From: Sinosporangium siamense
GTDB taxonomy: Bacteria; Actinomycetota; Actinomycetes; Streptosporangiales; Streptosporangiaceae
NCBI RefSeq assembly: GCF_016863435.1
Contig: NZ_BOOW01000007.1
Span: 248,001 to 312,000 of the forward strand
Reading direction: 5' to 3'
Length of the DNA stretch: 64,000 nt
This document shows positions 4,301-57,962 of the stretch, piece by piece. The notes under the pieces were generated by a model. It ran no database searches. It was given only the letters and a program-made list of their open reading frames with translations, and was not told the origin of the DNA. Position numbers and translations under genes: made by a program. The first letter of the stretch is position 1, and every line of letters starts with the position of its first letter.

Positions 4301-5890
4301 TCACTTCTTGCAGATGTTTTGCGTGGCCGTGCGGGCCGTGGCCGTGGTCGTGGGAGCCGCGGTGGCCTTGGCGGCGGGCGCGGTGGAAGGGGGCGGAGTC
4401 CCGGTGACGGTGACCTTCTTCACCGCCGGCTGGTCACGGCCCACGATGACCTCGATGCCGTCGATCTCGACCTCGCGGAGCTCCGATCCGGGCAGGGCGG
4501 CGGCCACGGTGCGGGCGGCGTCGAGCTGGCCCGTGCCGTACCGGACGACGGTCTGTGTGTGGTCGCGCCTGGAGGTGTCGCCGGGTTTGTCGGGGATGAG
4601 GAAACCGGCCCCCACAAGGGCGGTCTTGGTGCGGGCGCCGAGCCCGACGATCGCGGTGCCGTTGAGCACACGCAGGGTGACGCGGCCGGGCGGCACAGTC
4701 AGGGCGGGCGGGCTGGGCGCCGGCGTGGGGGAGGCGGAGGGTGAGCCGGAGGCCGGCGGTTTGGGCGAGGCGGACGAACCGGGGGCGGCGAGTGGCTGGT
4801 CGGCGTCGATGCTCTGGAAGAGGGCACGGGCCGCCGCCTTGTCCAAGAGCACGGCGGACTCGCCGGTGGGGGTGCGGAAGTCGCTGTCGGCGATGGGCAC
4901 CGTGGCGAACGAGACGTCGTCGGTGGAGATGCCCTTGAGCTGGTTGGCCAGCCCGAGCAGGTCGGCGCTGAGCTCGGCGTCGACGGTGAGGGTGTTGAGG
5001 GTGGTGGTGATGAAACCGGTGAGCTTGGCGGGGCTCGTGAGCGTGTCACCGCTGAGCGCCTGCTTGAGCAACGCGGACATGAACTGCTGCTGCCGGTCGA
5101 TGCGGTCGAAGTCGGACCGCGCGGTCACGCGGGTGCGGGCGAAGGCGAGGGCCTTGACGCCGTCCAGCTCATAGGTGCCGGGTTGGAGGTTGAGCGCGGT
5201 CTTCGGGTCGTCGATGGGGACCGGGGTGCACACCGAGACGCCGCCGATGGCGTCGACGACCTTGATGAAGCCGAGCACGTCGACCTCGACATAGTGGTTG
5301 ACGGTCAGACCGGTGAGGCTCTGCACGGCTTTGACGGTGAGCTTGGGGCCGCCCAGCTGATAGGCGGCGTTGATCTTGTGGTCACCCTTGCCGTCGGGGA
5401 GGGTTGTCCAGGTGTCGCGGGGGATGCTGACGACCGTCACCTTGGAGTGGTCTTCGGAGAGATGGACAAGCATCATCGTGTCCGTGCGCCGGCCCGTGTC
5501 GCGGCCGAGCTTGAGCTGGTTTTGCTCCCTGCGGGTGAGATTGTCGCGCCTGTCCACTCCGACCAGCAGGATGTTCATCGCGCCCCGGCTCGCCGAACCC
5601 GCGACCCCCGCGTCCACCGAGTCGATCTGACTCGCCGCGTAATTGGGCAACGCCCACAGCACCGCCGACCCCATCAGCACGACGCTCGACATCGCCCCCG
5701 CGAGCACTAGGTTGCGCCGGCGAGTCCGGGCCCCCCGCGCGCTCTTGCGCGCCGCCGCCCGCGGCGCGCCGCCCAGGCGGACTCCGCCGTAGGCGTCGCC
5801 CCCCACCCGGACAGCCGCCTCGTCAAGGCCGTCCTCGCGCGACGGGCCGGAGCCGCCCGGAGATCCCTCCGGGCGATGCGAGTCGCGCAT
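4301..5890 (-). CDS. LytR-CpsA-Psr (LCP) family cell-wall ligase with LytR_C domain
   Basis: A 529-residue membrane enzyme of the LCP family, which transfers lipid-linked glycopolymers onto peptidoglycan outside the membrane. A cytoplasmic tail of about 60 residues precedes one transmembrane helix (61-80). The LCP domain follows, with MNILLVGVDRR, RRTDTMMLVHL, SIPRDTW (Arg158, Asp159), HKINAAY, NHYVEVD and DFDRIDRQQ, all family landmarks. After a proline-rich linker (about 370-400) comes a LytR_C domain beginning LRVLNGTAIVGLG. The full length and intact phosphate-binding arginines suggest an active enzyme. It sits at the edge of a glycosyltransferase cluster and is divergent from the GT2 gene at 6004, consistent with attaching the polymer made there. 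Confidence 0.93.
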   Translation of the reverse strand: MRDSHRPEGSPGGSGPSREDGLDEAAVRVGGDAYGGVRLGGAPRAAARKSARGARTRRRNLVLAGAMSSVVLMGSAVLWALPNYAASQIDSVDAGVAGSASRGAMNILLVGVDRRDNLTRREQNQLKLGRDTGRRTDTMMLVHLSEDHSKVTVVSIPRDTWTTLPDGKGDHKINAAYQLGGPKLTVKAVQSLTGLTVNHYVEVDVLGFIKVVDAIGGVSVCTPVPIDDPKTALNLQPGTYELDGVKALAFARTRVTARSDFDRIDRQQQFMSALLKQALSGDTLTSPAKLTGFITTTLNTLTVDAELSADLLGLANQLKGISTDDVSFATVPIADSDFRTPTGESAVLLDKAAARALFQSIDADQPLAAPGSSASPKPPASGSPSASPTPAPSPPALTVPPGRVTLRVLNGTAIVGLGARTKTALVGAGFLIPDKPGDTSRRDHTQTVVRYGTGQLDAARTVAAALPGSELREVEIDGIEVIVGRDQPAVKKVTVTGTPPPSTAPAAKATAAPTTTATARTATQNICKK

Positions 5891-6003
5891 CTGGTGACCC
5901 CCTCACCGTGAGACTCATGGGGAGACGCCGGCCCGCGTCGCCTATGTCGCCGACGTCTTCGGTTGCTATCCCCACCCGCTCGTACAGTAGCGTGAGCGGA
6001 GCC

Positions 6004-7023
6004 ATGAAGCAGTTCCCCGACTCGCCCATGCCGAGCCCGTCCGCCAAGACGCGCGTCTGGCCGCCCATCTCCGTCGTCATGCCGGTCCTCAACGAGGAAC
6101 GACACCTGCGCGAGGCCGTCCGCCAAGTGCTCTCGCAACACTACGACGGCCCGATGGAGGTCGTGCTGGCCATCGGGCCCAGCCACGACCGCACGCAAGA
6201 GGTCGCCGACGCTCTCGCGGCCGAGGACCCCCGCGTGATCGTCGTGCCCAATCCCACCGGCCGCACACCCAACGCCCTCAACGCCGCGATCGGGGCGTCG
6301 AGCAACGCCGTCATCGCCCGCGTCGACGGGCACGCGATGCTCCCGCCCGACTATCTGCGCGTCGCGGTCGAGACACTTGAGGAGACCGGGGCCGACAACG
6401 TCGGCGGCATCATGGCGGCCGAAGGCATCACCCCCTTCGAGCAGGCGGTCGCGCGGGCGATGACCTCCAAGATCGGTGTGGGCAACGCCCGCTTCCACAC
6501 CGGCGGCGAGGCCGGCCCGGCCGACACCGTCTACCTCGGGGTGTTCCGCCGCGAGGCGCTCCATCGCGTCGGCGGCTACGACGAGCACTTCCAGCGGGCC
6601 CAGGACTGGGAGATGAACCACCGCATCCGCCAGACCGGCGGCCTCGTGTGGTTCCAGCCGCGCATGCGGGTCACCTATCGGCCGCGGCCCAGCGTGAAGG
6701 CTCTGGCCAAGCAATATTTCCACTACGGGCGCTGGCGGCGGGTCGTGGCCCGCACGCACGAGGGCACCATCAACATGCGCTACCTCGCGCCGCCCCTGGC
6801 CGTGCTCGCGATTCTCGCCGGGCTTGTGGCCGCCCCCTTCTTCTGGCCCGCCGTCCTGGTGCCCGGGGGCTACGCCGCCGCCGTGCTCGCCGGCACGGTC
6901 CTCACCGGCCGCGGCCTGCCCGCGGCGGCGCTTATGCGGCTCCCGCTGGTCTACATGACGATGCACATGTCATGGGGCTGGGGCTTCCTGACGAGTCCTC
7001 CCGCTTTGAGCCGCACCCGCTGA
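6004..7023 (+). CDS. Glycosyltransferase family 2, ExoA-like, membrane-anchored
   Basis: A family 2 glycosyltransferase of 339 residues. The GT-A fold starts at ISVVMPVLNEERHL (22-35). The metal-binding motif is ARVDGH with Asp108, and the acceptor region reads FQRAQDWEMNHRIRQ. Two or three hydrophobic helices follow (about 260-320), so the protein is bound to the inner membrane face like succinoglycan ExoA. It should transfer one sugar from a nucleotide sugar to a lipid-linked acceptor; the sugar is unknown. ATG at 6004 follows a GGAG two bases away; ATG 6028 and an open upstream frame to 5908 are alternatives. It converges with the cytidylyltransferase gene at 7044. Confidence 0.88.
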   Translation: MKQFPDSPMPSPSAKTRVWPPISVVMPVLNEERHLREAVRQVLSQHYDGPMEVVLAIGPSHDRTQEVADALAAEDPRVIVVPNPTGRTPNALNAAIGASSNAVIARVDGHAMLPPDYLRVAVETLEETGADNVGGIMAAEGITPFEQAVARAMTSKIGVGNARFHTGGEAGPADTVYLGVFRREALHRVGGYDEHFQRAQDWEMNHRIRQTGGLVWFQPRMRVTYRPRPSVKALAKQYFHYGRWRRVVARTHEGTINMRYLAPPLAVLAILAGLVAAPFFWPAVLVPGGYAAAVLAGTVLTGRGLPAAALMRLPLVYMTMHMSWGWGFLTSPPALSRTR

Positions 7024-7043: not shown

Positions 7044-7814
7044 TTAGGTGCCGGGTTTGGGGAAGTTATCGGGACTTTGGGAGGCGGCGAGCTGTAACAA
7101 CTTCTCCGCGATCGCGATGTCGATGGGGTGGGTCACTTTGATGTTCTGCTCGCTACCCGGCACGATGTGGATCGGCACGTCCGGCATGTAATGCAGCACG
7201 ACTCCACAGTCGTCGGTCGGTGCGCGCCCCGCGAAACCGGGATCGGCGAAGGCGCGCTCATATGCCTCCCTGATGACCGAGAGGCGAAATCCCTGCGGCG
7301 TCTGCACCCGGCGCAGCCGCGCCCGCGCCGGGATGTCCTTCACGACCTCTCCGCCGGGCCCCGGCTCCACCACCATGATCGTGTCCGAGGTCGGGACCGC
7401 CACGTCGATCGCCGAGTGCACTTGAAGCGCCTCGACGCACGCGGTGACGACCTCGGCCGGCAGCAACGGCCGTGCCCCGTCGTGCAGGAGCACGTTGCAC
7501 TCCTGCTCGCCGAGGGCTTGAAGCGCCCGCCACGTCGTCTCGGTACGGCTCGCGCCTCCTTCGAGGACACGGCTCACCTTGCGGTAGCCGTTCCGCTCGA
7601 CCATCGCCTCGGCCTCGGCGGTGAACCCCGGGGCCATCAGCACGAGGATCTCGTCCACCTCCGGCGCGGCCTCGAAAACCGCGATCGTATGTTCAAGAAT
7701 TGTCCGACCGGCGATTCTTATGAGCTGTTTCGGGGTATTCAATCCCACCCGTTGTCCCACTCCGCCGGCCAAGATTGCTCCAACGGTGCGCAGACGCTGC
7801 ATAGGTACGGCCAA
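7044..7814 (-). CDS. IspD/TarI family cytidylyltransferase
   Basis: A 256-residue CTP-dependent nucleotidyltransferase. It has the glycine-rich loop AILAGGVGQRVGLNTPKQ (13-30, Lys29), the central HDGARP, the RVQTPQGFR and TDDCG motifs, and the GSEQNIKVTHPIDI ending. These fit both IspD (CDP-methylerythritol) and TarI (CDP-ribitol). Chromosomal ispD normally sits beside ispF; here the partners are CDP-alcohol phosphatidyltransferases and glycosyltransferases, so I favour activation of a polyol phosphate for a surface polymer. TTG at 7814 has GAGGA six bases upstream; ATG 7802 is the alternative. It is divergent from the gene at 7978 and shares its promoter region. Confidence 0.85.
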   Translation of the reverse strand: MAVPMQRLRTVGAILAGGVGQRVGLNTPKQLIRIAGRTILEHTIAVFEAAPEVDEILVLMAPGFTAEAEAMVERNGYRKVSRVLEGGASRTETTWRALQALGEQECNVLLHDGARPLLPAEVVTACVEALQVHSAIDVAVPTSDTIMVVEPGPGGEVVKDIPARARLRRVQTPQGFRLSVIREAYERAFADPGFAGRAPTDDCGVVLHYMPDVPIHIVPGSEQNIKVTHPIDIAIAEKLLQLAASQSPDNFPKPGT

Positions 7815-7977: not shown

Positions 7978-9450
7978 GTGCCTGAGTCCCCGAGCAGTGA
8001 CACTCAGACGACCGCGGCAGTCGTGCTCGCGACAACCCCCGGAGCGGGGTTGACGTGCGGCGACGGCACACTTCTGCAACGCGTGACCGATCAGTTGGCC
8101 ACCATGCCGGTGCGGGCGGTGCATGTGGTGGCCCGCGCTCCCGCGGGGGGCGACTCGTGGTCACCAAGTCTGGCCGACGACCTACGGAGCGTGGCCGACA
8201 CGGCCAAGAGCGCGACGGGTCCGGTCTTGATCGTCGCTGGCGACGTGGTCGCTCACGACGAGGCCCTGTCCGCGCTCGTGCGGCATCCCGCGAGGGGCAC
8301 GAGCGCGCTCGTCGCGCTCGACACCCTGGGGCCGGGTCCGCTGCGTCCGCCGGTGCGGGTGGAGCGCGGGCACGTCGTGTCTGCGGGCAGTTCGTTCCAC
8401 CGGGTCGCGTCGGCCAACGGCACGTTCCGGGGGGTGCTCCAGGTCGGCGTGGCCGATCTTGGAGGGCTCGCCGCGACGGCGACGGAGCTCGCCGAATACA
8501 TCGAGGGCGGCCGCCTCGGGCCGGTGAGCGGCTCGGAGGTAGCCGATCTGCTGCTGGCCGGGCTGGTGCGCGCCGGGATGGCGGTGCGGGCCGCGCCGCT
8601 CGGGCAACTCCACGCCGACCGGGTCATCGGCCAGCCGAGCGCCGACCGGGCGCTGCGGCAGCTCGCCGAGGTGGACGAGCGCAAGGTGCGCCTGGCGGCT
8701 GCGGTCAAGACCAACGACGGCCTCTTCGCGACATACGGCGTGAGCACCTGGTCCAAGCACCTCGTCATGGTGGCCGCGAGACTCGGGCTGACGCCCAACG
8801 CGATCACGGGGTTCTCGGTGGGGCTGGCCTTCCTGGCCGCGATCTGGTTCTCCTCGGGCTCCCGCGCCGCGATGGTCGCCGGCGGATTGCTGATGCTCGC
8901 GTCTTTTGTGCTCGACTGTGTGGACGGCCAGCTAGCTCGCTACACGCGGGCCTTCTCCCCGCTCGGCGCGTGGCTCGACGCGACGTTCGACCGGGTGAAG
9001 GAATATGTCGCCTATGTAGGGCTCGCCATTGGATATGCAGGTGTCTCCTTTGACTCGCCGAACAGCGGCGTCTGGACACTCGCGGTGGCGGCGCTTGTGC
9101 TCCAGATGCTCCGGCACATGATCGACTTCTCCTACGCAGGGGCCGTGGCCGACGCGCGTTCGTGGGCCCGCCCGCCGATCTCGCTGCTCGTGCCCGAGGA
9201 CGGCCCCGTGGTGGAGCCCGACCGCGCGGGCGGCAACACAGTGGTGCGCCTGGCCGACAAGATGCAGGGCGACACCGTCACCCGCTGGCTGAAGAAGGTC
9301 ATCGTGCTTCCCATCGGCGAGCGCATGGTGCTCATCGCCGTGACGGCGGCCTTCTTCGACGCCCGCGTCACCTTCCTGGCCCTGCTCGTCTGGGGCGGCG
9401 TGGCCGCCCTCTACAGCCTCACCGGGCGGATAGCGAGGTCGTTGGCGTGA
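7978..9450 (+). CDS. Two-domain protein: nucleotidyltransferase-like + CDP-alcohol phosphatidyltransferase
   Basis: A 490-residue protein with two parts. Residues 12-240 resemble a nucleotidyltransferase fold (AAVVLATTPG, then GPVLIVAGDVVAHDEAL), but the usual AAGxGxR loop is replaced by ATTPGAGLTCGDG, so catalysis by this half is doubtful. From about residue 250 a membrane CDP-alcohol phosphatidyltransferase follows, with the full signature: DCVDGQLAR (Asp313, Asp316, Arg321), Gly330, Asp334 and Asp338. Such enzymes move a phospho-alcohol from a CDP-alcohol to another alcohol, releasing CMP. The architecture recalls the fused IPCT/DIPPS enzymes that make di-myo-inositol phosphate. The GTG start at 7978 has AAGGAGA eight bases upstream. 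The 3' end is duplicated just downstream. Confidence 0.88.
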   Translation: MPESPSSDTQTTAAVVLATTPGAGLTCGDGTLLQRVTDQLATMPVRAVHVVARAPAGGDSWSPSLADDLRSVADTAKSATGPVLIVAGDVVAHDEALSALVRHPARGTSALVALDTLGPGPLRPPVRVERGHVVSAGSSFHRVASANGTFRGVLQVGVADLGGLAATATELAEYIEGGRLGPVSGSEVADLLLAGLVRAGMAVRAAPLGQLHADRVIGQPSADRALRQLAEVDERKVRLAAAVKTNDGLFATYGVSTWSKHLVMVAARLGLTPNAITGFSVGLAFLAAIWFSSGSRAAMVAGGLLMLASFVLDCVDGQLARYTRAFSPLGAWLDATFDRVKEYVAYVGLAIGYAGVSFDSPNSGVWTLAVAALVLQMLRHMIDFSYAGAVADARSWARPPISLLVPEDGPVVEPDRAGGNTVVRLADKMQGDTVTRWLKKVIVLPIGERMVLIAVTAAFFDARVTFLALLVWGGVAALYSLTGRIARSLA

Positions 9451-9569
9451 GGCCGGCGCGTGTGTGCCCGGTGCCCCCCTCGTGGGCGCCGGGCCGGCAT
9501 CTGCTCGTCCCGGGCGGCGTGGCCGCCCTCCACAGTCCCACTGGGCGGATAGCGAGGTCGTCGGCGTGA
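9382..9569 (+). repeat. Direct duplication of the 3' end of the CDP-alcohol phosphatidyltransferase gene
   Basis: Bases 9382-9450, the last 69 bases of the gene including its TGA, recur at 9501-9569 with 7 mismatches by hand alignment. The copies are 119 bases apart. In the second copy the final GTGA can serve as the GTG start of the next gene, as it would in a stop-start overlap. Confidence 0.85.
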
Positions 9570-10189
9570 TCTCCGTGCACATGACCCCCGTCCCGCGTGG
9601 TTCCGTAGTCGCCTACCGCGACGACGGTGCCCTGTCTCAGGCCATGGGCTCGCTGGTCGCCGGTCAGCTGCCGCCGTTGCCCCCCGCCCTGGCGGGGGCG
9701 TTCGTGACCGGCATCCTGCTCGCCATCGGGGTGGCGGGGACCGACGGGCTCGCGGTCTTCGCCCCGGCGGTGGCGCTGCTTCTCGCCGGGCCGGGGAGTT
9801 CGCACCGGCATGACGGGCGGCTCGACTGGCTGGTGCCGCCGATCCTGCGGCTCACCGAATACGGCTTCATCGCCTCGGTGGGGTTCGCCCACGAGGTGCC
9901 GCCGCTCATCCTCTTCCTCCTGCTGGGCGCGATGGCCTTCCACCACTACGACACCGTCTACCGGGTGCGCCAGCGTGTCTACGCTCCCTCCTGGCTCGCC
10001 ACGCTCGGTCTCGGCTGGGAGGGGCGCATGCTGCTCGTCTCGCTGGGAGCGCTGGCCGGCGGGGTGACGGTCGTGTTCCTGTTGCTGGCGATCTATCTCT
10101 GGTGCCTGTTCGGCTGGGAGAGCGCGACGTGCTGGCTCGCGGCTCCCAGGTCGGGGGTGGACGCGGTGGATTTGGGAGCGCACGATTAG
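9566..10189 (+). CDS. DUF5941-like membrane protein
   Basis: A polytopic membrane protein of about 207 residues with roughly five hydrophobic segments: GAFVTGILLAIGVAG, FAPAVALLLAGP, PPLILFLLLGAMAF, MLLVSLGALAG and VTVVFLLLAIYLW. A conserved-looking loop HHYDTVYRVRQR sits in the middle. From its position beside CDP-alcohol enzymes I assign it to the DUF5941 group; no activity is known. The start is uncertain. GTG 9566 overlaps the stop of the duplicated tail and has GCGAGG eight bases upstream, while ATG 9581 is a second option. Placement between a CDP-alcohol transferase and the nucleotidyltransferase at 10331 suggests a role in the same membrane pathway. Confidence 0.75.
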   Translation: MISVHMTPVPRGSVVAYRDDGALSQAMGSLVAGQLPPLPPALAGAFVTGILLAIGVAGTDGLAVFAPAVALLLAGPGSSHRHDGRLDWLVPPILRLTEYGFIASVGFAHEVPPLILFLLLGAMAFHHYDTVYRVRQRVYAPSWLATLGLGWEGRMLLVSLGALAGGVTVVFLLLAIYLWCLFGWESATCWLAAPRSGVDAVDLGAHD

Positions 10190-10330: not shown

Positions 10331-11065
10331 TTGCTGGGAATGGTGCTGGCCGCCGGAGCCGGACGACGCCTTCGGCCCTACACCGACACGCTGCCAAAAG
10401 CGCTCGTGCCGGTCGACGGGGACACCACGATCATGGACATCTCGCTGCGCAACCTCGCGGCGGTCGATCTGCGGGAGATCGTGGTGATCGTCGGCTACGC
10501 GGCGCAAGCCGTACACGAGCGTCAGGCGGATCTGGAGCGTCGCCACGGCGTCAAGCTCACGCTGGTGCACAACGACAAGGCCGAGGAGTGGAACAACGCC
10601 TACTCCCTCTGGTGCGCACGCGACCACTTCGCCGAGGGCGCGCTGCTCGTCAACGGTGACACCGTGCACCCGGTGTCGGTCGAGGAGACCCTGCTCTCCG
10701 CCCCGGTGACCTCCGACGTGCTGCTCGCGGTCGACGACGTCAAGTCGCTGGCCGACGAGGAGATGAAGGTGACGCTCAGCCCGGAGGGCCACCTGGCCCG
10801 CATCACCAAGCTGATGGACCCCGCAGACGCCGCGGGTGAATACATCGGCGCGACCCTCATCAGGCCCGGCGCGGCCGAGCGGCTCGCCGACGCGCTCAAG
10901 GCGACCTTCGAGCGCGACCCGCAGCTCTATTACGAGGACGGCTACGCCGAGATGGTGGCCCGCGGAGAGAAGATCTCGGTGGCGCCCATCGGCAAGGTCG
11001 ACTGGGTCGAGGTGGACAACCACGACGACCTCGCCAAGGCCAGGGAGATCGCGTGCCGCTACTAG
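10331..11065 (+). CDS. LicC-like NTP transferase (phosphocholine cytidylyltransferase family)
   Basis: A 244-residue sugar-nucleotidyltransferase-fold enzyme. The signature MVLAAGAGRRLRPYT (4-18) and PKALVPVDG (22-30, Lys23) bind the nucleotide. VNGDT with Asp110 and VEVDNHDDL near the end supply metal-binding aspartates. Relatives such as LicC make CDP-choline, and others make CDP-glycerol or CDP-inositol. The next gene makes glycerol-1-phosphate and the one after uses a CDP-alcohol, so CTP plus glycerol-1-phosphate to CDP-glycerol is a reasonable inference. The start is TTG at 10331 with GAGGAG six bases upstream; earlier in-frame codons lack a ribosome site. It begins a tight run with the two following genes. 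Confidence 0.87.
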   Translation: MLGMVLAAGAGRRLRPYTDTLPKALVPVDGDTTIMDISLRNLAAVDLREIVVIVGYAAQAVHERQADLERRHGVKLTLVHNDKAEEWNNAYSLWCARDHFAEGALLVNGDTVHPVSVEETLLSAPVTSDVLLAVDDVKSLADEEMKVTLSPEGHLARITKLMDPADAAGEYIGATLIRPGAAERLADALKATFERDPQLYYEDGYAEMVARGEKISVAPIGKVDWVEVDNHDDLAKAREIACRY

Positions 11066-11111
11066 CGGAACCGCAGCCCACGAAGGGAACCTGGCCGCTC
11101 ATGGAGGTCGA

Positions 11112-12170
11112 GTGCCGATTCTAGCGAGGATGTTGCCGGCGCCCTTGATGATGGAGGTGAGACGGGGAGCCATCGCCCAGATCGGATCACTGCTGGCCGA
11201 CAGCAGGGTCGTCACCTCCGGGCGGGTGGCCGTGGCGGTCGGCACCGGGCAGGGTGATCACATCGCCAAGGTGATCGCGCCCTCGCTCGGTGAGGCGCAG
11301 GTGTTCCGGGTGTGCGACGGGTCCGTCGACGCCGCGGTCTCGCTCGGCGCCGACCTGCGCAAGGGAGCCTTCGAGGCGGTCGTCGGCATCGGCGGCGGCA
11401 AGACCATCGACGCGACCAAATACGCCGCGTCGCTGGCCGGCATCCCGATGGTCGCGGTCGCCACCAACCTGTCCCACGACGGCATCTGCTCACCTGTCGC
11501 CTCGCTCACCCACGAGGGGGGCAAGGGGTCCTTCGGCGTGCCGATGCCGCTCGCCATCATGGTCGACCTCGACTTCGTGCACGACGCGCCGAAGGCCTTG
11601 GTGCGTTCCGGAGTCGGCGACGTGGTGAGCAACCTGTCGGCCATCGAGGACTGGCAACTCGGCGCGGCCGAGCGCGGGGAGCCGATCGACGGGCTCGCCT
11701 GCTCGATGGCGCGCACCGCGGCGGAGGCGGTCATCGGACGAACCGATTCCATCGAATCAGATGCGTTTTTGACCGTTCTGGCGGAATCGTTGATCCTTTC
11801 CGGCATGTCGATGGTCGTCGCGGGCTCTTCGCGTCCCGCCAGTGGTGGCGACCATGAGATCCTTCATGCCGTGGATCAGCTTTATCCCGGCACCTCCAAT
11901 CACGGCGAGCTGGCCGGCATCGGCGCGGCCTTCTGCTTCTTCCTGCGGGGAGACCAGCGCCGCCTCACCCAGGTGGTCGACTGCCTGCGCGGCCACTCCC
12001 TCCCGGTCACGCCGGGCGACGTGGGCCTGACGACCGAGCAGTTCACCGCCGCCGTCAAGCTGGCGCCGGCGACCCGCCCCGGCCGCTACACGATCCTTGA
12101 TCACAAGCGGATGTCGGAGTCCGAGGCACGCGATCGGGTTGAGGAATATGTCGGCACCGTCGGTCGCTGA
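11112..12170 (+). CDS. sn-glycerol-1-phosphate dehydrogenase (EgsA/AraM-like)
   Basis: A 352-residue member of the iron-containing alcohol dehydrogenase superfamily, closest by motif to sn-glycerol-1-phosphate dehydrogenases. The NAD(P)-binding loop is GIGGGKTID (92-100). Metal ligands are visible as Asp170 in GVGDVVSN, His248 in RPASGGDHEILH and His264 in SNHGELAGIG; the RPASG...H...HGE pattern is the hallmark of archaeal G1PDH and Bacillus AraM. It should reduce dihydroxyacetone phosphate to sn-glycerol-1-phosphate, the enantiomer of normal bacterial glycerol phosphate. GTG 11112 has GGAGG four bases upstream. The 3' end overlaps the next gene by 23 bases, so the two are almost surely co-translated. 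Confidence 0.88.
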   Translation: MPILARMLPAPLMMEVRRGAIAQIGSLLADSRVVTSGRVAVAVGTGQGDHIAKVIAPSLGEAQVFRVCDGSVDAAVSLGADLRKGAFEAVVGIGGGKTIDATKYAASLAGIPMVAVATNLSHDGICSPVASLTHEGGKGSFGVPMPLAIMVDLDFVHDAPKALVRSGVGDVVSNLSAIEDWQLGAAERGEPIDGLACSMARTAAEAVIGRTDSIESDAFLTVLAESLILSGMSMVVAGSSRPASGGDHEILHAVDQLYPGTSNHGELAGIGAAFCFFLRGDQRRLTQVVDCLRGHSLPVTPGDVGLTTEQFTAAVKLAPATRPGRYTILDHKRMSESEARDRVEEYVGTVGR

Positions 12171-12915
12171 GATCCGCGCGGTCGCCCAGCCGCATTCGAC
12201 GATGGACCGCAAGAGCGGTGAACACTGGGCGGGCCTGCTCTACATGCGCAGGTTGTCCATCTACGTGACGTGGGCGCTGGCCCGCACGCCGATCACGCCC
12301 AATCAGGCCACCGGCCTGATGATCGTGACCGGTGTGCTGGCCGGGGTCGTGCTGGCGCTGCCCGGTTTCTGGGCGGCGCTCGGCGCGGCTCTGCTCGTGC
12401 AGCTCTATCTGCTGCTCGACTGCTCCGACGGCGAGCTCGCGAGGTGGACCGGCCGCACCTCCATCACCGGTGTCTACCTCGACCGGGTCGGGCACTACTT
12501 CGCGGAGGCGGCGCTGCTGATCGGGCTCGGCTTCCGGGCCTCTGAGACCCTCCCCGACTGGTACACCGTGCTCGGCTTCGCCGCCGCGCTCGGGGCGATC
12601 CTCATCAAGGCCGAGACCGACCTGGTCGACGTCGCCCGGGCCCGCTCGGGTCTGATCGCGGCGACCGAGTCGTCGGCCGAGCAGTTCCAGTCGCGGGGGC
12701 TCGGCACCGCGCGCAAGATTGCGGCGGCGTTCCGGTTCCACCGGGTCGTGCAGGCCGTGGAGTTATCGCTACTGGTAGTGATCGCCGCCGTATGGGACCT
12801 GCTCAGCGGGGGACTCGCCGCCACGCGGGTGCTCACGGTGGTGTGCGCGATCGTCGCGGGACTTCAGCTCATCCTTCATCTCGTGAGCATCTTGGCGTCG
12901 CGGCGGCTCAAGTGA
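12148..12915 (+). CDS. CDP-alcohol phosphatidyltransferase family protein, variant active site
   Basis: A 255-residue membrane enzyme of the CDP-alcohol phosphatidyltransferase family. The signature is DCSDGELAR (Asp91, Asp94, Arg99), Gly108 and Asp112, but the last catalytic Asp is His116 (YLDRVGHYF). About five to six hydrophobic helices surround it. It should transfer a phospho-alcohol from a CDP-alcohol, plausibly CDP-glycerol made from the product of the two genes before it. ATG 12148 lies inside the preceding gene, with GAGG just upstream. Leu206 is encoded by TTA, a rare codon in such genomes that could make expression depend on a bldA-type tRNA. Confidence 0.85.
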   Translation: MSAPSVAEIRAVAQPHSTMDRKSGEHWAGLLYMRRLSIYVTWALARTPITPNQATGLMIVTGVLAGVVLALPGFWAALGAALLVQLYLLLDCSDGELARWTGRTSITGVYLDRVGHYFAEAALLIGLGFRASETLPDWYTVLGFAAALGAILIKAETDLVDVARARSGLIAATESSAEQFQSRGLGTARKIAAAFRFHRVVQAVELSLLVVIAAVWDLLSGGLAATRVLTVVCAIVAGLQLILHLVSILASRRLK

Positions 12916-13026: not shown

Positions 13027-13908
13027 TTGAAGATTTCGTGCGTCATCCTCACCATGGGCAACCGAGTGGCCGAGCTGGACCGGGCCGTCGCGTCGGTGCT
13101 CGACCAGATCGACGGAGACGTCGAGGTCGTGGTCGTCGGCAACGGCGCGGACGTGCCGGAAATTACCGCCATGCCCGGTCCGGGCAATTCCGCCACGATC
13201 AAGGTTGTGCGTCTGCCGCACAATAGCGGCATCCCCGCCGGTCGCAACCGCGGCGTCGAGGAGTGCTCGGGCGACGTCATCCTCTTCCTCGACGACGACG
13301 GGTGGTATGCCAACCCCAGGGTCGCCGCCCACGTGCGCGACCGGTTCGCCACGGAGCCCGACCTCGCCGTCGTCTCCTTCCGGGTCATGGACCCCGACGG
13401 CGGCAACGGGCAACGCCGGCATGTGCCCCGCCTGCGCGCCGGCAACCCGGAGCGGTCCTCGCCGGTCACCACGTTCCTCGGCGGCGCGTGCGCGATCCGG
13501 CGCTCCGCCTACCTCCAGGTGGGCGGTCAGCCAGAGGCGTTCTTCTACGCCCACGAGGAGACCGACCTCGCCTGGCGCCTGCTGGGTCAGGGTTACCGCA
13601 TCGAATACGACGCCGACACCGTGATGTACCACCCGCAGGTGCCCCCGACCAGGCACGCGCAGTTCTACCGGCTCAACGCGCGCAACCGCGTCTGGCTGGC
13701 CCGCCGCAACCTGCCGTGGCCTCTCGCGTTCGTCTACCTCTTCGACTGGATCGTCCTCACGCTTGTCCGCGAACGTTCCGCGACCTCGCTGAAGGCGTGG
13801 TTCCGCGGCTTCTTCGAGGGGCTCCGCGAGCCCGCGGGGGAGCGCCGGCCGATGTCCTGGGGCACCGCCTGGCGCATGGCCAAACTCGGCCGGCCGCCGA
13901 TCGTGTGA
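13027..13908 (+). CDS. Glycosyltransferase family 2 (rhamnosyltransferase-like)
   Basis: A 293-residue GT-A enzyme. It begins ISCVILTMGNRVAELDRA, carries HNSGIPAGRNRGVEE (65-79), the metal motif FLDDDGWY (Asp89-91), and the acceptor-side YAHEETDLAWRLLGQG. This pattern is typical of family 2 enzymes that add rhamnose, galactofuranose or similar sugars to surface glycans; the donor is not identifiable. The protein is soluble or peripheral. A TTG at 13027 is the only plausible start and its ribosome site is weak. It follows the CDP-alcohol cassette in the same direction after 111 bases that hold the alternative hairpins, so it may be the last gene of that unit. Confidence 0.88.
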   Translation: MKISCVILTMGNRVAELDRAVASVLDQIDGDVEVVVVGNGADVPEITAMPGPGNSATIKVVRLPHNSGIPAGRNRGVEECSGDVILFLDDDGWYANPRVAAHVRDRFATEPDLAVVSFRVMDPDGGNGQRRHVPRLRAGNPERSSPVTTFLGGACAIRRSAYLQVGGQPEAFFYAHEETDLAWRLLGQGYRIEYDADTVMYHPQVPPTRHAQFYRLNARNRVWLARRNLPWPLAFVYLFDWIVLTLVRERSATSLKAWFRGFFEGLREPAGERRPMSWGTAWRMAKLGRPPIV

Positions 13909-14296: not shown

Positions 14297-15529
14297 GTGA
14301 CCACATCTCACGTCGCCACAAAAAAGCCGCCCCATCCCGACAGGGGCGCGGTTCGGCTTGGGTGGCTGGACGCCCTCCGCGGGGTCGCCGCCCTCGCTGT
14401 GGCGTTTCATCACGGCACTTACGTCTACACCCCCAACACCCGGGCGGCCGTGCTTGAGTGGTTCAACCCTGGTTTGTGGGGGGTGATGGTCTTCTTCCTG
14501 GTGAGTGGCTACATCATCCCGGCGTCACTGGAGCGCCACGGCAACGTGCGGCGGTTCTGGGTCAGCAGGCTCTTCCGTATCTACCCGCTTTGGGTGGCCG
14601 GGGCGGTGGTGCTCGTTCTGCTGGCGCTTTTCGGTGTGAGCCCGATCCGGGGGGAGCTTTACCGGTTCGACCCGGTCACGGCGACGGTGGCCCACGTGAC
14701 GATGTTCCAAGACCTGCTCACGGTGCCCAACGCGCTCAACGTGTTGTGGACCCTCTCCTATGAGATGGCCTTCTATCTTCTGGTCGTCGGCCTGTTCGCG
14801 CTCCGCCTGCATCGGCGGTCGACGGCTGTCGTCTCCCTGCTCCTCGTCGTGGCGGCGGGTCTGGGTGTGCTGGCCCCGGTCACGTTGCTCACGGACGCTT
14901 TCGGCGCGCCCGCCGTGGTGGCCGCCGCGGCCGTCGGGATGGCGGTCGCGATCGGGGCCGCGTTCGCCGGCCCTCCGTCGCTGCGCATGGCGGGCATGGT
15001 GACCGGTGGTGTGCTCGCGATGGCCTTGGTGGCGCTGAACGGCAGGAACGCGCCCTGGCTCGGAGTGTCGATCGTGGCGATCATGTTCACGGGCACGGTG
15101 ATCTATCGGGCCGAGCGCGGTGAGGCGAGCCGGTGGACGGCCTGGCTCGTCTGCGGGGTCGTGCTCGCCGCGACGGTGGCACAGGGATGGTGGCATCCGG
15201 GGCACGTCGAAGGCGGTGCCGTCGCGTGGACAACGACCCTCGTGCTCGCCGCGGTCGCGTTCGCGGTGGGCCTCGCCACCGCCAAACGCAGGACACCCAC
15301 GTGGCTGACGATGCTGGGCACGATGAGCTTCTCCGTCTATCTCCTGCACCCGCTGCTGCTGAAGGTCTCCGACGCGACGCTGGGGCGCTGGAAGGAATAC
15401 GACAACTATCTGCCGCTGGTCGTCTTCCTCCTGATCCTGCTCCCGATCTCCTGGGCCGCTTACACCTGGGTGGAAAAACCCATGCAGATCAAGGGTGCCG
15501 CCCTCGGCAGGCGGATGAAGAGCCCTTGA
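14297..15529 (+). CDS. Acyltransferase family 3 membrane protein (OafA-like)
   Basis: A 410-residue polytopic protein of the acyltransferase 3 family, which O-acylates surface sugars using acyl-CoA from the cytoplasm. The N-terminal signature LGWLDALRGVAALAVAFHHG includes the conserved Arg and His38-His39. FFLVSGYIIP and RRFWVSRLFRIYPLWV match family blocks two and three, and about ten hydrophobic helices follow. The C-terminus has the typical SFSVYLLHPLLL. It is likely to decorate the polymer made by nearby glycosyltransferases. GTG 14297 is the apparent start, with no strong ribosome site. It stands alone between two repeat-rich or low-GC gaps. Confidence 0.88.
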   Translation: MTTSHVATKKPPHPDRGAVRLGWLDALRGVAALAVAFHHGTYVYTPNTRAAVLEWFNPGLWGVMVFFLVSGYIIPASLERHGNVRRFWVSRLFRIYPLWVAGAVVLVLLALFGVSPIRGELYRFDPVTATVAHVTMFQDLLTVPNALNVLWTLSYEMAFYLLVVGLFALRLHRRSTAVVSLLLVVAAGLGVLAPVTLLTDAFGAPAVVAAAAVGMAVAIGAAFAGPPSLRMAGMVTGGVLAMALVALNGRNAPWLGVSIVAIMFTGTVIYRAERGEASRWTAWLVCGVVLAATVAQGWWHPGHVEGGAVAWTTTLVLAAVAFAVGLATAKRRTPTWLTMLGTMSFSVYLLHPLLLKVSDATLGRWKEYDNYLPLVVFLLILLPISWAAYTWVEKPMQIKGAALGRRMKSP

Positions 15530-18909: not shown

Positions 18910-21630
18910 TTAGCGCGAGGGCCGCCGGTAGAGCCAGACGAGGCGGGGTTCGAGCAGCCACTTGAACAGCGTGCGGGTCTGCGGCAGGCACAGGATGATC
19001 GTGAGCAGCAGCGAGCAGGTGGTGATCGCCACGACACCGAGAGGCCCGTGCAGCCACGGCAGGTCGAGCAGGCCCGTCTCCTTGCCGATCATCACCGGCA
19101 CACCGTGCAGGAGATAGGCATAGAGCGTGCGTGTGCCGAGGTCGGTGTACCACGTCTCACCGCGCGGGGACAGCGCCAGCACCGCGAACGACAGGGCCAT
19201 CGAGGCGATCAGCATGGCCGCGCGCAGGCCCATCCCGAGCAACCAGGTGAGGCCGAGATCCTCGAAGCCGTACTTGAAGTACATCGGCTTGACGGACATA
19301 TGGGGAGCGACGAGAATCGCGACCCCCGCGCCGCCGACCAGCGTCACACCGGCGAGGATCTTGACCCAGCCCCGGTTGAGCAGCTCGAAGTGCTTCGGCT
19401 GAAGCATGAGACCGAGCACGAAGAACGGCAGAAGCCCGAAGAAGCGGTCCATGCTGAAATCGCCGGAGATGGCGGAGAAACCCGCCAGCATATAGATCAC
19501 GACCGAGACCAGGAACGGATGCCGCATCCGCTTCCACACCGGTGTCGAGAGCCGCCATAGGAGCAGGGCGAGGAGATACCAGTTGAGCCAGGCCGGATCC
19601 ATGATGGTCAGGCTCCACTTCTGGCCCGTGGCGAAACGCAACAGGGCATAACCGACTTCCACGATCACGTAGGGGATCAGGAAGGTGTCGACCAGCTTGT
19701 TGGTCTTCGCGTTTGAGTTCCAGAAGTTTCTGCTCAGATAACCACTGATCATGACGAACAGCGGCATGTGAAAGGCGAAAATAAAAATGTAGGCGGATTT
19801 CCCGGAATGCGCGTCCAGCGTCGGCACCAGCGCATGCCCGGCCACCACAAGGGCGATCAGGATGAACTTGACGTTGTCGAGATATGGCTCGCGCTTGCGC
19901 GGCGCACGCGCCGGAGCGGGGGCGGCGGTGGCCGTGCGGGTCCGCGTCCGCGTGTCGGTGACCGCCGCCAGCACCGCACCACCCCGGGGCGGGATGCCCG
20001 CACGGGCGGCCTCGTCGAAGTCCGCCGAATGAGTGCGATCCGGGCGGGGCAGGTCGGTGCGGGTCTGCGCGGTCGCCGTGGCCCGGCCGGCCGCGTGGGG
20101 ATTGGTCTGCTGCGGGCCCGTGGAGTAGAGATCCGCGCCGTGGGGATTTGTCGCGTGGTAGTCGGTGGGGCGCGGCCGGGGAAGGCTCGGCGGGTCGTTC
20201 TCCGCCGCCTGGTCCCCGGGGCCCGGATAGGGCGGGTGTGCACCACTCGCGTGCGCCGGCGAGGTGCCGTCGTGCTGCTGGGGCACCTTGTCCCAGTAGG
20301 ACCCGCCGGTGGAGGGCGGCAACTCCTGCTCCCAGGTCGCCGGGCGATAGTCCGCGGGCCTGGTGTAGGGGCGGTCGTACGGCGAAGCCGGCGGGGACGA
20401 CAACACGTCGTCGGCGTGGCCTGGCGTCTTCGCCCAGTAGGTGCCGCCGGTCGTCGACACCGGGTCACCCAGGATGTCGGCCCCGCCCGTGCCGGTCGTG
20501 CCGGTCGTGCCTGCCGCGTGCGTGTCGGCGGGGAGGGAGTAGGCGCCGGAGGGGAAGCCACCGGGCGTGGCAGCGCTCTGGGGGGAGGCGCTGTGGGAAG
20601 AGGCGCTGTGGGAAGAGGCGCTGTAAGGGGAAGCGTTGTGCGGGGAGTCGCCGGCGCCGGGTGTGGAACCGCCGCGGGGGAAGCCACCGGACGTGGAGGT
20701 GCCCTGGGCGGGAACACCGGGGGTGGAGCCGTAGGGTGCGGCGCTGGGGGATTGCGGTGTGGAGGTGGGGGCGCTCGGATCATATGCCGGGTTGTACGCG
20801 GGATAGCCCCATGCGGTGACCTCGCCGGCGTCTTCGTCGTCCGACAAGAGCGATCCGGTGCCCGATCCCTGCCCGCCAGAGCCCTGTCCCCCGGGGGTCC
20901 TGCCGGGCTGCGTGCCGTATCCGTCGGCGGCGGGCTGCGAACCGTATTCGCTGCCGCTGAAGCGCGAATCGTGACCGGCCTGGGGCTGCGGGCCGGCGTG
21001 AGGGGAGGCCGCGCTCGGACGGTCGGCTCCCGGCCATGAGCTGTGTGTCTCGCCGGTGGCCCCCGGCCATGAACCGTATGTCTCGCCGGCCGTCTGGGGA
21101 GGTGTCGGCTTCGGCCATGAGCCGCGTGTCTCGCCGGCCGTCTGGGGAGGCACCGCTCCCGGCCATGAACCGCCGGACGGGGAGGACGTCTGGCCCGGCC
21201 GGTGGTCCGCGCCCGGCCACGAGCTGTGCCCGCCACCGGCCTGGTGGGAGGTCTCGCCTCGCCCTCGCACGTCGCCCTGCCAGGTGACGTGTGCTTCCCC
21301 GGCGGGCCCGGCGGGGCTCTGGCCCGGCCATGAGCGGTTGGCCTGCCATGTCTGGTCGGAGTGCGTCTCGTCGGAGTGCCACGCCTCGCCCGGCTGCCGG
21401 GGGCCCTGCCCGTGGCGGCCGTCGTCTCCGTGCCGCGCGGGCTCGCCCTGCCAGGTCGGCTCGTCCTGCCAGGTCGGGGTCACGGGGCGGTGACCTGGCA
21501 GCTCCGGCCAGCCGTCCCCTTGCCCGGGGACGGGGTTTTCCTGGGCGGGTGGGGAGGGAGCTGGATCGCCTCCGCCCGCGGAGTCGTCGCGTGGAACCGG
21601 CACGTTGAACGGGGAATGGGTGTCACTCAC
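18910..21630 (-). CDS. Acyltransferase 3 family protein with ~570-residue disordered N-terminus
   Basis: A 906-residue protein. The C-terminal third, about residues 575-895, is an acyltransferase 3 domain: YLDNVKFILIALVVAGHAL, MPLFVMISGYLSRN, and about ten membrane helices, close to fucose 4-O-acetylase-like proteins. The first 570 residues are low-complexity, rich in Pro, Gly, Ser, Thr and Trp. They include 16-residue repeats around GSWPGAVPPQTAGET and a 5-residue repeat ASSHS. Codon positions stay high-GC and the frame is unbroken, so the region looks translated. The GTG start at 21630 lacks an obvious ribosome site, so the true start could be internal. It should acylate surface sugars; the tail is cytoplasmic by topology and its role is unknown. 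Confidence 0.83.
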   Translation of the reverse strand: MSDTHSPFNVPVPRDDSAGGGDPAPSPPAQENPVPGQGDGWPELPGHRPVTPTWQDEPTWQGEPARHGDDGRHGQGPRQPGEAWHSDETHSDQTWQANRSWPGQSPAGPAGEAHVTWQGDVRGRGETSHQAGGGHSSWPGADHRPGQTSSPSGGSWPGAVPPQTAGETRGSWPKPTPPQTAGETYGSWPGATGETHSSWPGADRPSAASPHAGPQPQAGHDSRFSGSEYGSQPAADGYGTQPGRTPGGQGSGGQGSGTGSLLSDDEDAGEVTAWGYPAYNPAYDPSAPTSTPQSPSAAPYGSTPGVPAQGTSTSGGFPRGGSTPGAGDSPHNASPYSASSHSASSHSASPQSAATPGGFPSGAYSLPADTHAAGTTGTTGTGGADILGDPVSTTGGTYWAKTPGHADDVLSSPPASPYDRPYTRPADYRPATWEQELPPSTGGSYWDKVPQQHDGTSPAHASGAHPPYPGPGDQAAENDPPSLPRPRPTDYHATNPHGADLYSTGPQQTNPHAAGRATATAQTRTDLPRPDRTHSADFDEAARAGIPPRGGAVLAAVTDTRTRTRTATAAPAPARAPRKREPYLDNVKFILIALVVAGHALVPTLDAHSGKSAYIFIFAFHMPLFVMISGYLSRNFWNSNAKTNKLVDTFLIPYVIVEVGYALLRFATGQKWSLTIMDPAWLNWYLLALLLWRLSTPVWKRMRHPFLVSVVIYMLAGFSAISGDFSMDRFFGLLPFFVLGLMLQPKHFELLNRGWVKILAGVTLVGGAGVAILVAPHMSVKPMYFKYGFEDLGLTWLLGMGLRAAMLIASMALSFAVLALSPRGETWYTDLGTRTLYAYLLHGVPVMIGKETGLLDLPWLHGPLGVVAITTCSLLLTIILCLPQTRTLFKWLLEPRLVWLYRRPSR
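20581..20640 (-). repeat. 15-base in-frame tandem repeat inside acyltransferase gene
   Basis: Four consecutive 15-base units (20581, 20596, 20611, 20626) close to GGAAGAGGCGCTGTG encode repeated Ser-Ala-Ser-Ser-His in the disordered tail. The central two differ at one base. Confidence 0.85.
21064..21159 (-). repeat. 48-base in-frame tandem repeat encoding Trp-containing motif
   Basis: Two adjacent 48-base units (21064-21111 and 21112-21159) plus partial copies on both sides encode a 16-residue repeat with the core PPQTAGET-GSWP. They lie in the disordered N-terminal part of the acyltransferase. Confidence 0.8.
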
Positions 21631-37927: not shown

Positions 37928-40597
37928 ATGAGTGAGCGTCATCCCCAAGTCAGTGATAGCGCTCTGCGTCGCGCCCTAGCCAGGGCGCGCGACGGCAAGG
38001 CGCTCGATGTCAACGAGGCGACCGTACTCCTCCACGCACGCGGCGATCACCTGGAGACCCTGCTTGGCCATGCGGCCAGGGTGAGGGACGCAGGTCTTGA
38101 GGCCGTGGGGCGTGCGGGAATCATCACCTATAGCCGGAAAGTATTCGTCCCGCTCACCCGGTTGTGTCGTAACCGGTGTCACTACTGCACGTTCGCGACC
38201 GCACCCCACAAACTGCCCAGCGAGTTCCTCAGCCCGGACGAGGTGCTCGACATCGCCAGGCGGGGGGCGGCTCTGGGGTGTAAGGAGGCGTTGTTCACGC
38301 TGGGCGACCGGCCGGAGGACCGGTGGCACCAGGCGAAGGAATGGCTTAACGCGCATGGATACGACGACACGTTGTCCTATGTCCGTGCGATGGCGATCCG
38401 GGTGCTGGAGGAGACCGGTCTCCTGCCGCACATCAACCCGGGGGTCATGAGCTGGCGCGACCTTCAGCGGCTTAAGCCGGTGTCGCCCTCGATGGGCATG
38501 ATGCTGGAGACGACCTCGACGAGGTTGTTCACGGAGAAGGGCCAAGCTCACTATGGTTCGCCGGACAAGGACCCGGCGGTGCGACTTCGTGTGCTTGAAG
38601 ATGCCGGGCGGTCGAATGTGCCGTTCACGACCGGCATCCTGATCGGCATCGGGGAGACGATCCGGGATCGGGCGGAGTCACTGTTCGCCATCCGCAAGGT
38701 GGCGAGGGAATACGGCGGCATCCAGGAAGTCATTATTCAGAACTTCCGCGCGAAACCGGACACCGTCATGCAGCGGATGCCGGACGCCGACCTGCACGAG
38801 CTGGCGGCGACCATCGCGGTGGCGCGTCTGGTGTTCGGGCCGAAGATGCGTGTGCAGGCCCCGCCCAACCTCATCGGCGACGAGTTCGAGTTGATGGTGC
38901 GGGCCGGGATCGACGACTGGGGCGGCGTGTCGCCGCTGACGCCCGACCACGTCAACCCGGAGAGTCCCTGGCCGCAGATCGAGCGCCTCACCGCGCTTAC
39001 GGCGGAGGCCGGCTTCACGTTGCGCGAGCGTCTGACCGTCTACCCCGAGTTCATCAAGGCGGGGGAGCCCTGGCTCGACCCTAGGGTGGTGGGGCACGTG
39101 CGTGCGCTCCTCGACCCGGTGACGGGCATGGCCGACGAGTCGGCGCTGGTCGTGGGCCGTCCGTGGCAGGAGCCCGACGGGGGGTTCACGGCGTCGGGGC
39201 GGGTCGACCTGCACGTCGGCGTGGACACCGAGGGCAGGACGAACGACCGGCGTGATGACTTCGACCACGTTTACGGTGACTGGGAGGCACTGCGGGAGCG
39301 CCTCCATGAGAGCGATCCCACGGCGGCCTCCGACGGCACCGGCACCACCGCCCCTGTCAACGCGGTCGGCGGGGTTCTCGTGGGCGACGTCGGCGAGGCG
39401 TTGCGCCAGGCCGAGCGGGACCCCGCGAAGCTGACCGAGGCGCAGGCGCTGACCCTGCTGGAGACGGCCGGCGACCAGCACGGACGCGGGGCCGACGACG
39501 CGGCGCTGGCCGCCCTGTGCGAGATCGCCGACGGGCTGCGCCGGGAGGCGGTGGGCGACGACGTGACCTACGTCGTCAACCGGAACATCAACTTCACCAA
39601 CGTCTGCTACACGGGTTGCCGGTTCTGCGCGTTCGCGCAGCGGCGCTCGGACGCCGACGCCTACACGCTCTCGCTCGACCAGGTGGCCGATCGGGCGCAG
39701 GAGGCGTGGGCGGCGGGCGCGACCGAGGTGTGCATGCAGGGCGGCATCCACCCTGATCTCCCCGGCACGGCATATTTCGACATCGCCAAGGCGGTGAAGG
39801 CCAGATGCCCGGATATGCACGTCCACGCCTTCTCCCCGATGGAGGTGGTCAACGGCGCAAGCCGTACGAACCTCTCCATTGAGGACTGGCTGGTCGGCGC
39901 GAAGGAGGCGGGGGTGGACTCGCTGCCGGGCACGGCGGCCGAGATCCTCGACGACGACGTGCGCTGGGTGCTGACCAAGGGCAAGTTGCCGACGCAGGAG
40001 TGGATCGAGGTCATCACGACAGCCCACCGGGTGGGCATTCCGACCACGTCGACGATGATGTACGGCCATGTCGACAACCATCTGCACTGGGTGCGGCACA
40101 TCAGGCTGATCCGCGAGCTGCAGTCGCGCACGGGAGGCTTCTCGGAGTTTGTGCTCCTGCCGTTCGTGCACCACAGCGCGCCCATCTACCTGGCGGGCAT
40201 CGCCCGGCCCGGCCCGACCTCGCGGGAGAACCTCGCGGTGCACGCGCTGGCCCGGGTGCTCTTGCACGGGTCCATCAAGAACATCCAGTGTTCATGGGTG
40301 AAGCTCCGCGACGGCCTGTGCCGGCAGGTGCTCGCCGCCGGGGTCAACGATCTCGGTGGCACGCTGATGGAGGAGACCATCAGCCGCATGGCGGGCTCGG
40401 AGAACGGCTCCTACAAGACGATCAGTGAGATCGCCGCGATGGTGGCCCCCACCGGCCGCCCGCTGCGGCAGCGCACGACCGAGTACACCGAGCCGAGCGC
40501 CGAGCGCAGGGCCGCGGCGGCGGCCAGTGACGGTGTGTGCGGGAGTGTGCGGCGTACGGCGGTGCCGATCACCTTGACGACCCGCGTGGAGTCGTAG
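37928..40597 (+). CDS. fbiC: FbiC, 7,8-didemethyl-8-hydroxy-5-deazariboflavin (Fo) synthase
   Basis: An 889-residue fusion of the CofG and CofH radical SAM enzymes that builds Fo, the chromophore of coenzyme F420, from tyrosine and a flavin precursor. Two iron-sulfur motifs are intact: CRNRCHYC (Cys80, 84, 87) and CYTGCRFC (Cys560, 564, 567). The N-terminal half also shows [12 protein letters not shown] and ETTSTRLF, and the second half [16 protein letters not shown]. Fusion is normal in actinobacteria, while archaea keep the halves apart. ATG 37928 is the start. It converges with fbiB-fbiA across a strong terminator, so all three F420 genes sit within 5 kb. Confidence 0.97.
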
Positions 40598-40626
40598 CCG
40601 ACCACGCGTGACGGTCAAGTCCGACC

Positions 40627-40657: not shown

Positions 40658-40667
40658 CCAAACAGCC

Positions 40668-57891: not shown

Positions 57892-57962
57892 GCCGGTCCG
57901 GCTCACCGATCCGCCCGGCGGGTCGTGGGGTGAGACTGGTTCACTGATCCGACAAGCTTCAT

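Follow-up and report, generated by a model that had tools for sequence, protein, structure and literature searches.

The 64,000-nucleotide stretch of Sinosporangium siamense DNA considered here (the window; contig NZ_BOOW01000007.1, positions 248,001 to 312,000, from a host genome of 8.86 Mb in 84 contigs) carries a block of six genes on one strand that appears to couple a sn-glycerol-1-phosphate (G1P) dehydrogenase to a cytidylyltransferase. The block begins with CDPOHbi (7978..9450, +), a degenerate cytidylyltransferase-like domain fused to a cytidine diphosphate (CDP)-alcohol phosphotransferase (Pfam PF01066, 42.7 bits), and a DUF5941 protein (9464..10189, +; PF19365, 90 bits). These are followed by NTP (10331..11065, +; Pfam NTP_transferase), a LicC/PntC-like cytidine triphosphate (CTP) transferase predicted to act as a sn-glycerol-1-phosphate cytidylyltransferase, and by G1PDH (11112..12170, +), a 352-aa protein of the EgsA/AraM family of sn-glycerol-1-phosphate dehydrogenases that passes Pfam Fe-ADH_2. 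The last two genes are CDPOH (12148..12915, +), a membrane protein of the CDP-alcohol phosphotransferase family (PF01066 CDP-OH_P_transf, 27.5 bits; cut-off 22), and GT2b (13027..13908, +), a family 2 glycosyltransferase (PF00535). Start codons were chosen by ribosome-binding-like sequence and homology; the preferred ones are TTG at 10331 for NTP with AGGAG upstream, GTG at 11112 for G1PDH with GGAGG upstream, and ATG at 12148 for CDPOH. The first-pass annotation had described NTP, G1PDH, and CDPOH as three adjacent genes (the trio), with a 23-base overlap between G1PDH and CDPOH, and the open reading frame coordinates confirm this overlap (12148..12170, +).

The block is conserved well beyond this genome. 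Related loci were taken as the best 80 of 120 confirmed relatives, all of them Streptosporangiaceae-type actinomycetes, and the order CDPOHbi-DUF5941-NTP-G1PDH-CDPOH-GT2b was complete and on a single strand in all 80. Most trio-bearing deeper actinobacterial regions examined have the six-gene block as well. Measured from the stop codon of G1PDH to the residue that aligns with residue 1 of CDPOH, the register is -23 in 94 of 94 measurable loci (117 tried), where residue 1 is set by the alignment and the actual start codons may differ in some loci. The arrangement appears to be more than chance because this register is constant and the block is intact in 80/80 loci. All six genes were likewise present in family f3 (6/6 regions: L119-L122, L124, and L125) and in L114-L117. 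Some regions show rearranged or reduced versions: L177 has the same genes in a different order, L127 is missing CDPOHbi and DUF5941, and L113 has just the NTP-G1PDH pair of the six, followed by a different CDP-alcohol transferase. In S. fungicidicus (L193), a single gene annotated as a 'DUF5941 domain-containing protein' adjoins NTP and CDPOHbi matches the same record, so the two are joined.

The pairing of NTP with G1PDH was also evident in a phylum-wide sample of 396 genomes, in which G1PDH was found in 82 (at 1e-10), NTP in 42 (at 1e-15), and CDPOH in 22 (at 1e-15). With pairing thresholds of E<=1e-15 for NTP and E<=1e-40 for G1PDH (42 genomes at 1e-40), 38 genomes had both and each gene occurred without the other in 4. 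The corresponding Fisher value is 8e-44; since the genomes are related, it should not be read as if the events were independent. CDPOH follows the same pattern, as 19 of the 22 genomes with it also have G1PDH (1e-40). Where both members of the pair were present, NTP immediately preceded G1PDH in the same orientation in 35/38 genomes; in the remaining three the genes were ~15 kb apart on one contig (G108), 3.4 kb apart (G003), or on separate contigs (G058). These findings support NTP-G1PDH as a real co-conserved unit. In the stretches examined, the G1PDH homologues on plasmids of Nitratidesulfovibrio, Cytobacillus, and Priestia had no annotated cytidylyltransferase as a neighbor.

The first-pass annotation assigned the dehydrogenase to the EgsA/AraM type, and profile and structure searches agree. 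The protein scored 241 bits against NCBIfam PRK00843 (G1P dehydrogenase) and 55 bits against the GldA model. Among solved structures, archaeal G1P dehydrogenases matched at ~1e-40 and GldA-type glycerol dehydrogenases at ~1e-10 or weaker, and the top match was 3ce9 (1e-43), which was deposited as a glycerol dehydrogenase. The residues singled out at first pass are in place in the 352-aa numbering, with GIGGGKTID starting at residue 92 and histidines at 248 and 264. D170 aligns with an Asp of the solved archaeal enzyme and would form the metal site together with H248 and H264. Of 48 aligned homologues, 47 have D170 and all 48 have the two histidines. An SSRPASG-type stretch also agrees with the solved archaeal G1P dehydrogenase. 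The sequence evidence thus supports grouping the protein with G1P dehydrogenases and not with GldA. Its counterpart in Sinosporangium album is 91% identical. In a tree of G1PDHs, the CDPOH-linked rows together with L113, L126, and L123 formed one set of 23 rows (support 100/99). Rows of another family, f10, formed a separate group and the AraM-like sequence of Priestia was distant; the deep joins of this tree are unsure because several branches are long.

What does the cytidylyltransferase act on? The closest solved relative of NTP by sequence is LicC (1jyk, 2e-12), in keeping with its first-pass description as LicC-like, and by fold it is PntC. The AlphaFold model of NTP had a mean predicted local distance difference test score (pLDDT) of 64.9, which is too poor for pocket analysis, and it served for the fold match only. 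In T. denticola PntC, one report describes Arg15, Lys25, and Lys153 as required for activity and Glu104 and Glu196 as positioned to contact the amine of 2-aminoethylphosphonate (AEP), with Asp105 and Asp192 as the LicC equivalents (PMC6697681). Through the LicC alignment, PntC Arg15, Lys25, Lys153, Glu104, and Glu196 correspond to R13, K23, K160, N108, and E202 of the window NTP, where the R13 equivalence is taken from the ungapped offset of that alignment. Conservation was scored in rows comprising the window, 3 of the 80 relatives' loci, and rows from later regions scoring at least 45, with the duplicates L118 and L178 dropped. R13 and K23 were present in 40/40 aligned NTPs, and K160, N89, N108, and M145 in 36/36 NTPs from G1PDH-bearing genomes or records. 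In other words, the acid at the amine-contact position is missing from every one of these 36 and Asn108 stands in its place. A second alignment (A2, 28 rows) showed the same invariant NTP residues. The other four NTPs are linked to a transaminase; they have K (one) or N (three) at the K160 position, T at N89, D at N108, and V or I at M145. Among eight further controls without a linked G1PDH, the N108 position was D or E in five and N in three. Four of the five D/E controls adjoin aepX or a class V transaminase, and the fifth, from Prevotella, lies with aminotransferase-like and LicD-like frames. Because 3/8 controls without G1PDH also carry Asn108, the idea that this residue marks the G1PDH-linked enzymes exclusively was rejected.

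The genomes that have NTP without G1PDH at the pairing thresholds are informative about its substrate. In all four (G005, G025, G169, and G320), a gene matching TIGR03301 (2-aminoethylphosphonate transaminase) and a CDP-alcohol transferase gene lie beside NTP; the matches score 312, 239, 257, and 254 bits, respectively, all under the cut-off of 360.8. These genomes represent a swap of the substrate-forming enzyme, in which a transaminase-like gene takes the place of G1PDH. The pattern of residue substitution together with this swap suggests that NTP acts on the product of its neighbor. Because the acid typical of amine substrates is absent in 36/36, the predicted substrate is one that has no amine and comes from the adjacent dehydrogenase. 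Residues and gene neighborhood support the view that NTP would use an amine-free compound made by G1PDH.

The likely destination of the product was sought in gene content, using 28 of the 82 genomes with a G1PDH match at 1e-10, chosen mainly among the strongest. An ether lipid made via PcrB was rejected since PcrB was over cut-off in 0/28 (two weak matches), with B. subtilis and archaea positive as controls. TagD (TIGR01518) was likewise over cut-off in 0/28, with weak matches in 12; the better of the weak matches in the host genome falls in a long frame whose start, read by eye, resembles a heptose kinase. TagF-like genes (PF04464) occurred in 18/28, and 7 of these 18 had no TagD match of any kind. 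TagF-like genes are no proof of glycerol because PF04464 also covers ribitol-phosphate transferases. In one genome (G121), a TagF-like gene (314 bits) and a GDPD gene adjoin NTP-G1PDH, the only TagF adjacency among the 28. Elsewhere the linkage is looser: in G386 a stretch of 18 kb holds the six genes together with TagG, TagH, and a TagF-GT2 protein, NTP lies near TagF-like and TagGH-like genes in G108, and a second G1PDH near obg in G334 is followed a few kb beyond by TagF-like and TarS-linker genes. In family f3 (6/6 regions) and S. fungicidicus, GT2b is followed directly by TagG- and TagH-like genes and then by hpnC and hpnD. The block of the window is itself preceded by LCP1 (4301..5890, -), a LytR-CpsA-Psr (LCP) protein and candidate wall-glycopolymer ligase (PF03816 and PF13399), and by GT2a (5908..7023, +), a family 2 glycosyltransferase (PF00535); each was found in 78/80 related loci, and GT2b in 80/80. 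LCP1 may belong to the pathway. The presence of TagF, TagGH, LCP, and glycosyltransferase genes in relatives supports a surface glycopolymer as the destination.

In the proposed pathway, G1PDH would reduce dihydroxyacetone phosphate to G1P, and NTP would combine G1P with CTP to form CDP-1-glycerol. A membrane transferase would then pass glycerol phosphate to a lipid-linked glycan. This glycan would be exported, through a TagGH-like transporter in genomes that have one linked, and LCP proteins would couple it to the wall. We infer the substrate, stereochemistry, acceptor, and acting transferase from the patterns described above, and the CDP-1-glycerol route into a surface glycopolymer, taken as a whole, is probable with considerable room for doubt. 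The best reading is that the operon is a variant of LicC/PntC logic that supplies CDP-1-glycerol for a wall glycopolymer. As in PntC/LicC tailoring, a cytidylyltransferase of the same superfamily with the catalytic Arg and two Lys kept would activate with CTP a small phospho- or phosphono-alcohol that is made and passed to a surface glycan or lipid. In contrast to those systems, the substrate would be formed by a G1P dehydrogenase, Asn replaces the amine-contacting Glu/Asp, and two CDP-alcohol transferase-family proteins are linked, with TagF and TagGH genes in relatives. The TagD-TagF-TagGH route to wall teichoic acid, which uses CDP-3-glycerol, resembles the operon in that TagF- and TagGH-like genes are linked in several relatives and LCP genes are near; it differs in that no TagD was over cut-off in the 28 genomes and that the predicted CDP-1-glycerol would come from G1P by an unrelated type of cytidylyltransferase. 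The AraM-PcrB route of Bacillus to heptaprenylglyceryl phosphate also uses an EgsA/AraM-family member for G1P, but the AraM-like sequence of Priestia is far from the clade of the window enzyme, PcrB was not over cut-off, and G1PDH is paired here with a cytidylyltransferase. Finally, CDPOHbi shares a two-domain architecture and fold, a CDP-alcohol donor, and a membrane transferase with the Archaeoglobus proteins IPCT-DIPPS and AF2299. It differs from them in that its nucleotidyltransferase domain does not show the GxG(T/S)R...PK signature (read from the sequence by eye) and in that its genes stand in a glycan setting.

Several observations weigh against this pathway. The 241 bits of G1PDH are far under the PRK00843 equivalog cut-off of 413, and an L141 homologue falls short likewise (261 bits). 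NTP was missing at threshold from 4/42 G1PDH genomes, although in one of them (G001) a weak NTP match adjoins G1PDH. The Asn at the N108 position of three of the eight control NTPs (L168, L197, and L203) occurs away from any linked G1PDH. The host genome has its TagG-like gene on another contig and its TagF-like genes elsewhere than in the window. A search at 1e-15 gave no CDPOH in the genomes of family f10. In two genomes (G225 and G268), CDPOH, GT2a, and GT2b are present with neither G1PDH nor NTP at thresholds, so the donor of CDPOH need not always come from NTP-G1PDH. Both of these genomes also encode a weak match to PF04464 (25-26 bits), and at one of their loci (L168) a more distant LicC-like gene ~6 kb off has N108 but T89 and V145. 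The last point concerns the catalytic motif of CDPOH, D1xxD2G1xxAR...G2xxxD3xxxD4 in the CDP-alcohol phosphotransferase family. In the window it reads DCSDGELARW..GVYLDRVGH, with D1-D3 kept and His at D4, and D4 is missing in 100/100 rows (His in 68, Ala in 32; rows scoring at least 150, two loci counted twice).

Which protein is then the transferase? The fourth Asp of the motif is the presumed base, and CDPOH may not be a catalytic transferase because this residue is absent; judged from the motif, it may pair with CDPOHbi or work by a different mechanism. CDPOH matches AF2299 (5e-11). The motif of CDPOHbi is complete in the window, and D4 is kept in 92/95 rows (one Ala, two with no motif match). 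The AlphaFold2 model of CDPOHbi (pLDDT 80.6) has IPCT-DIPPS (4mnd) and AF2299 as its closest matches in the PDB, with modest TM-scores of 0.38-0.57. CDPOH is no more likely to be the actual transferase than CDPOHbi or the TagF-like enzymes. The first-pass annotation had proposed an operon that makes CDP-1-glycerol and transfers the phosphoglycerol to a lipid or glycan later attached by the LCP ligases. This proposal is partly supported: the NTP-G1PDH unit, the NTP residues, the transaminase-like swap, and the glycopolymer setting speak for it, and a role of CDPOH as the catalytic transferase is weakened by the loss of D4 and by the complete motif of CDPOHbi at 7978-9450. Second CDPOH-like genes with Ala at D4 were seen in G193 and G182 (L173 and L174), and no NTP or G1PDH match was present in the surrounding stretches covered.

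Among other explanations, one holds that the dehydrogenase has changed its substrate, perhaps to a longer phospho-ketose, and forms a phosphorylated polyol other than G1P. NTP would then turn this polyol into its own CDP derivative, to be used in a polymer of the same kind. The low score of G1PDH against its curated model (241 vs 413) fits this idea, as does the TagF family PF04464, which also includes ribitol-phosphate transferases. However, the metal-site residues and the SSRPASG-type stretch agree with the solved archaeal enzyme, and a few genomes have TagF-like genes linked to the pair, which leaves a changed substrate rather unlikely. An explanation at the other end of the pathway is that the product is a small phosphodiester solute comparable to those of the glycerophosphoinositol and di-inositol phosphate routes of Archaeoglobus. 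Its appeal comes from IPCT-DIPPS and AF2299 as best structural matches of CDPOHbi and from a G1P-preferring cytidylyltransferase activity and glycerophosphoinositol route in Archaeoglobus, both cited in PMC8262930. The glycosyltransferase and LCP genes conserved around the block and the TagGH or TagF genes linked in relatives make a solute improbable.

The remaining two explanations would separate the cytidylyltransferase from the dehydrogenase. G1P could enter a membrane lipid, either as a PcrB-type ether or acylated via PlsY/PlsC, with NTP and CDPOH serving another purpose. PlsY and PlsC take both glycerol phosphate enantiomers according to PMC13400652, and CDPOH belongs to a superfamily of phospholipid-type transferases; still, the PcrB search stayed under cut-off in all 28 genomes and NTP lies directly before G1PDH in 35 of 38, so a lipid fate seems very improbable. 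Alternatively, NTP could be a phosphocholine or AEP cytidylyltransferase whose closeness to G1PDH is incidental. Relatives are indeed annotated as 'phosphocholine cytidylyltransferase family protein', and LicC and PntC are the best solved relatives by sequence and by fold. The Asn in 36/36 rows in place of the amine-contacting acid, the co-conservation and adjacency of NTP and G1PDH, and the transaminase-like gene found where G1PDH is absent all speak against this idea, which is the most doubtful of those considered.

Parts of the CDP-1-glycerol pathway favored here have precedents. The first-pass annotation knew G1P dehydrogenase in bacteria as AraM of Bacillus, but its range is wider, as a Streptomyces G1P dehydrogenase sequence is included in a 2016 phylogeny (PMC5059525). 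A synteny paper, in the portion accessible, lists a Streptomyces cluster of a CDP-alcohol transferase, GT2, a sugar-phosphate nucleotidyltransferase, tagG, tagH, araM, and crtB, and ties it to teichoic acid with no enzyme pathway proposed there (PMC13118837). Lipoteichoic acid carries G1P units that come from phosphatidylglycerol (PMC8262930 and PMC8587909), and CDP-1-glycerol is deemed likely absent from bacteria in PMC8262930. No bacterial G1P cytidylyltransferase or CDP-1-glycerol pathway was found in the open literature searched, subscription journals being mostly outside its scope. G1P units in bacterial surface polymers are thus already known, and the would-be novelty is the CDP-1-glycerol route.

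Other genes and settings were noted alongside. An IspD gene (7044-7814, -), with an IspD match also in 79/80 related loci, was rejected as a second activating enzyme; it is more likely housekeeping because the genome has no other strong IspD match (169.7 bits; next 34.5), and this sole strong match sits within a glycan locus. An acyltransferase downstream of GT2b (14297-15529) was rejected as a pathway gene, as it was found in 0/80 related loci. In the 13 regions of family f10, NTP-G1PDH is accompanied by genes for a DUF4012 protein and a type I phosphodiesterase (13/13) and for a sugar transferase (12/13); this setting (regions among L129-L148) may represent another use of the same activated compound. 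Further along the window, a likely coenzyme F420 gene group was recognized by Pfam (37928-43120), consisting of a radical SAM CofG/CofH-type protein (37928-40597), an F420 ligase with a nitroreductase (40668-41945, -), and CofD (41942-43120, -). Two successive genes of the S-adenosylhomocysteine hydrolase family (56464-59246) encode proteins of 475 and 411 aa, the second with a much lower PF05221 score (187 vs 504 bits). A 906-aa protein (18910-21630) has an acyltransferase-3 domain in its last third only and no Pfam match in the remainder.

A broader proposal, tentative and on balance doubtful, is that Streptomyces, Streptosporangiaceae, and deeper actinobacteria make a wall glycopolymer from CDP-1-glycerol by means of a dedicated G1PDH, a distinct family of G1P cytidylyltransferases (Asn89, Asn108, and Met145), and a pair of transferases, one of which, having lost the presumed catalytic Asp, would act as a partner or by another mechanism. 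The lipid divide is framed as archaeal G1P versus bacterial G3P. If the reading is true, a conserved G1P pathway serves the surface, and not the membrane, of a large group of soil bacteria that produce antibiotics. It would also correct the 'phosphocholine cytidylyltransferase' label of the relatives, give the actinobacterial G1P dehydrogenases a use, and point to where genomes with TagF-like genes and no recognizable TagD may obtain their CDP-glycerol.

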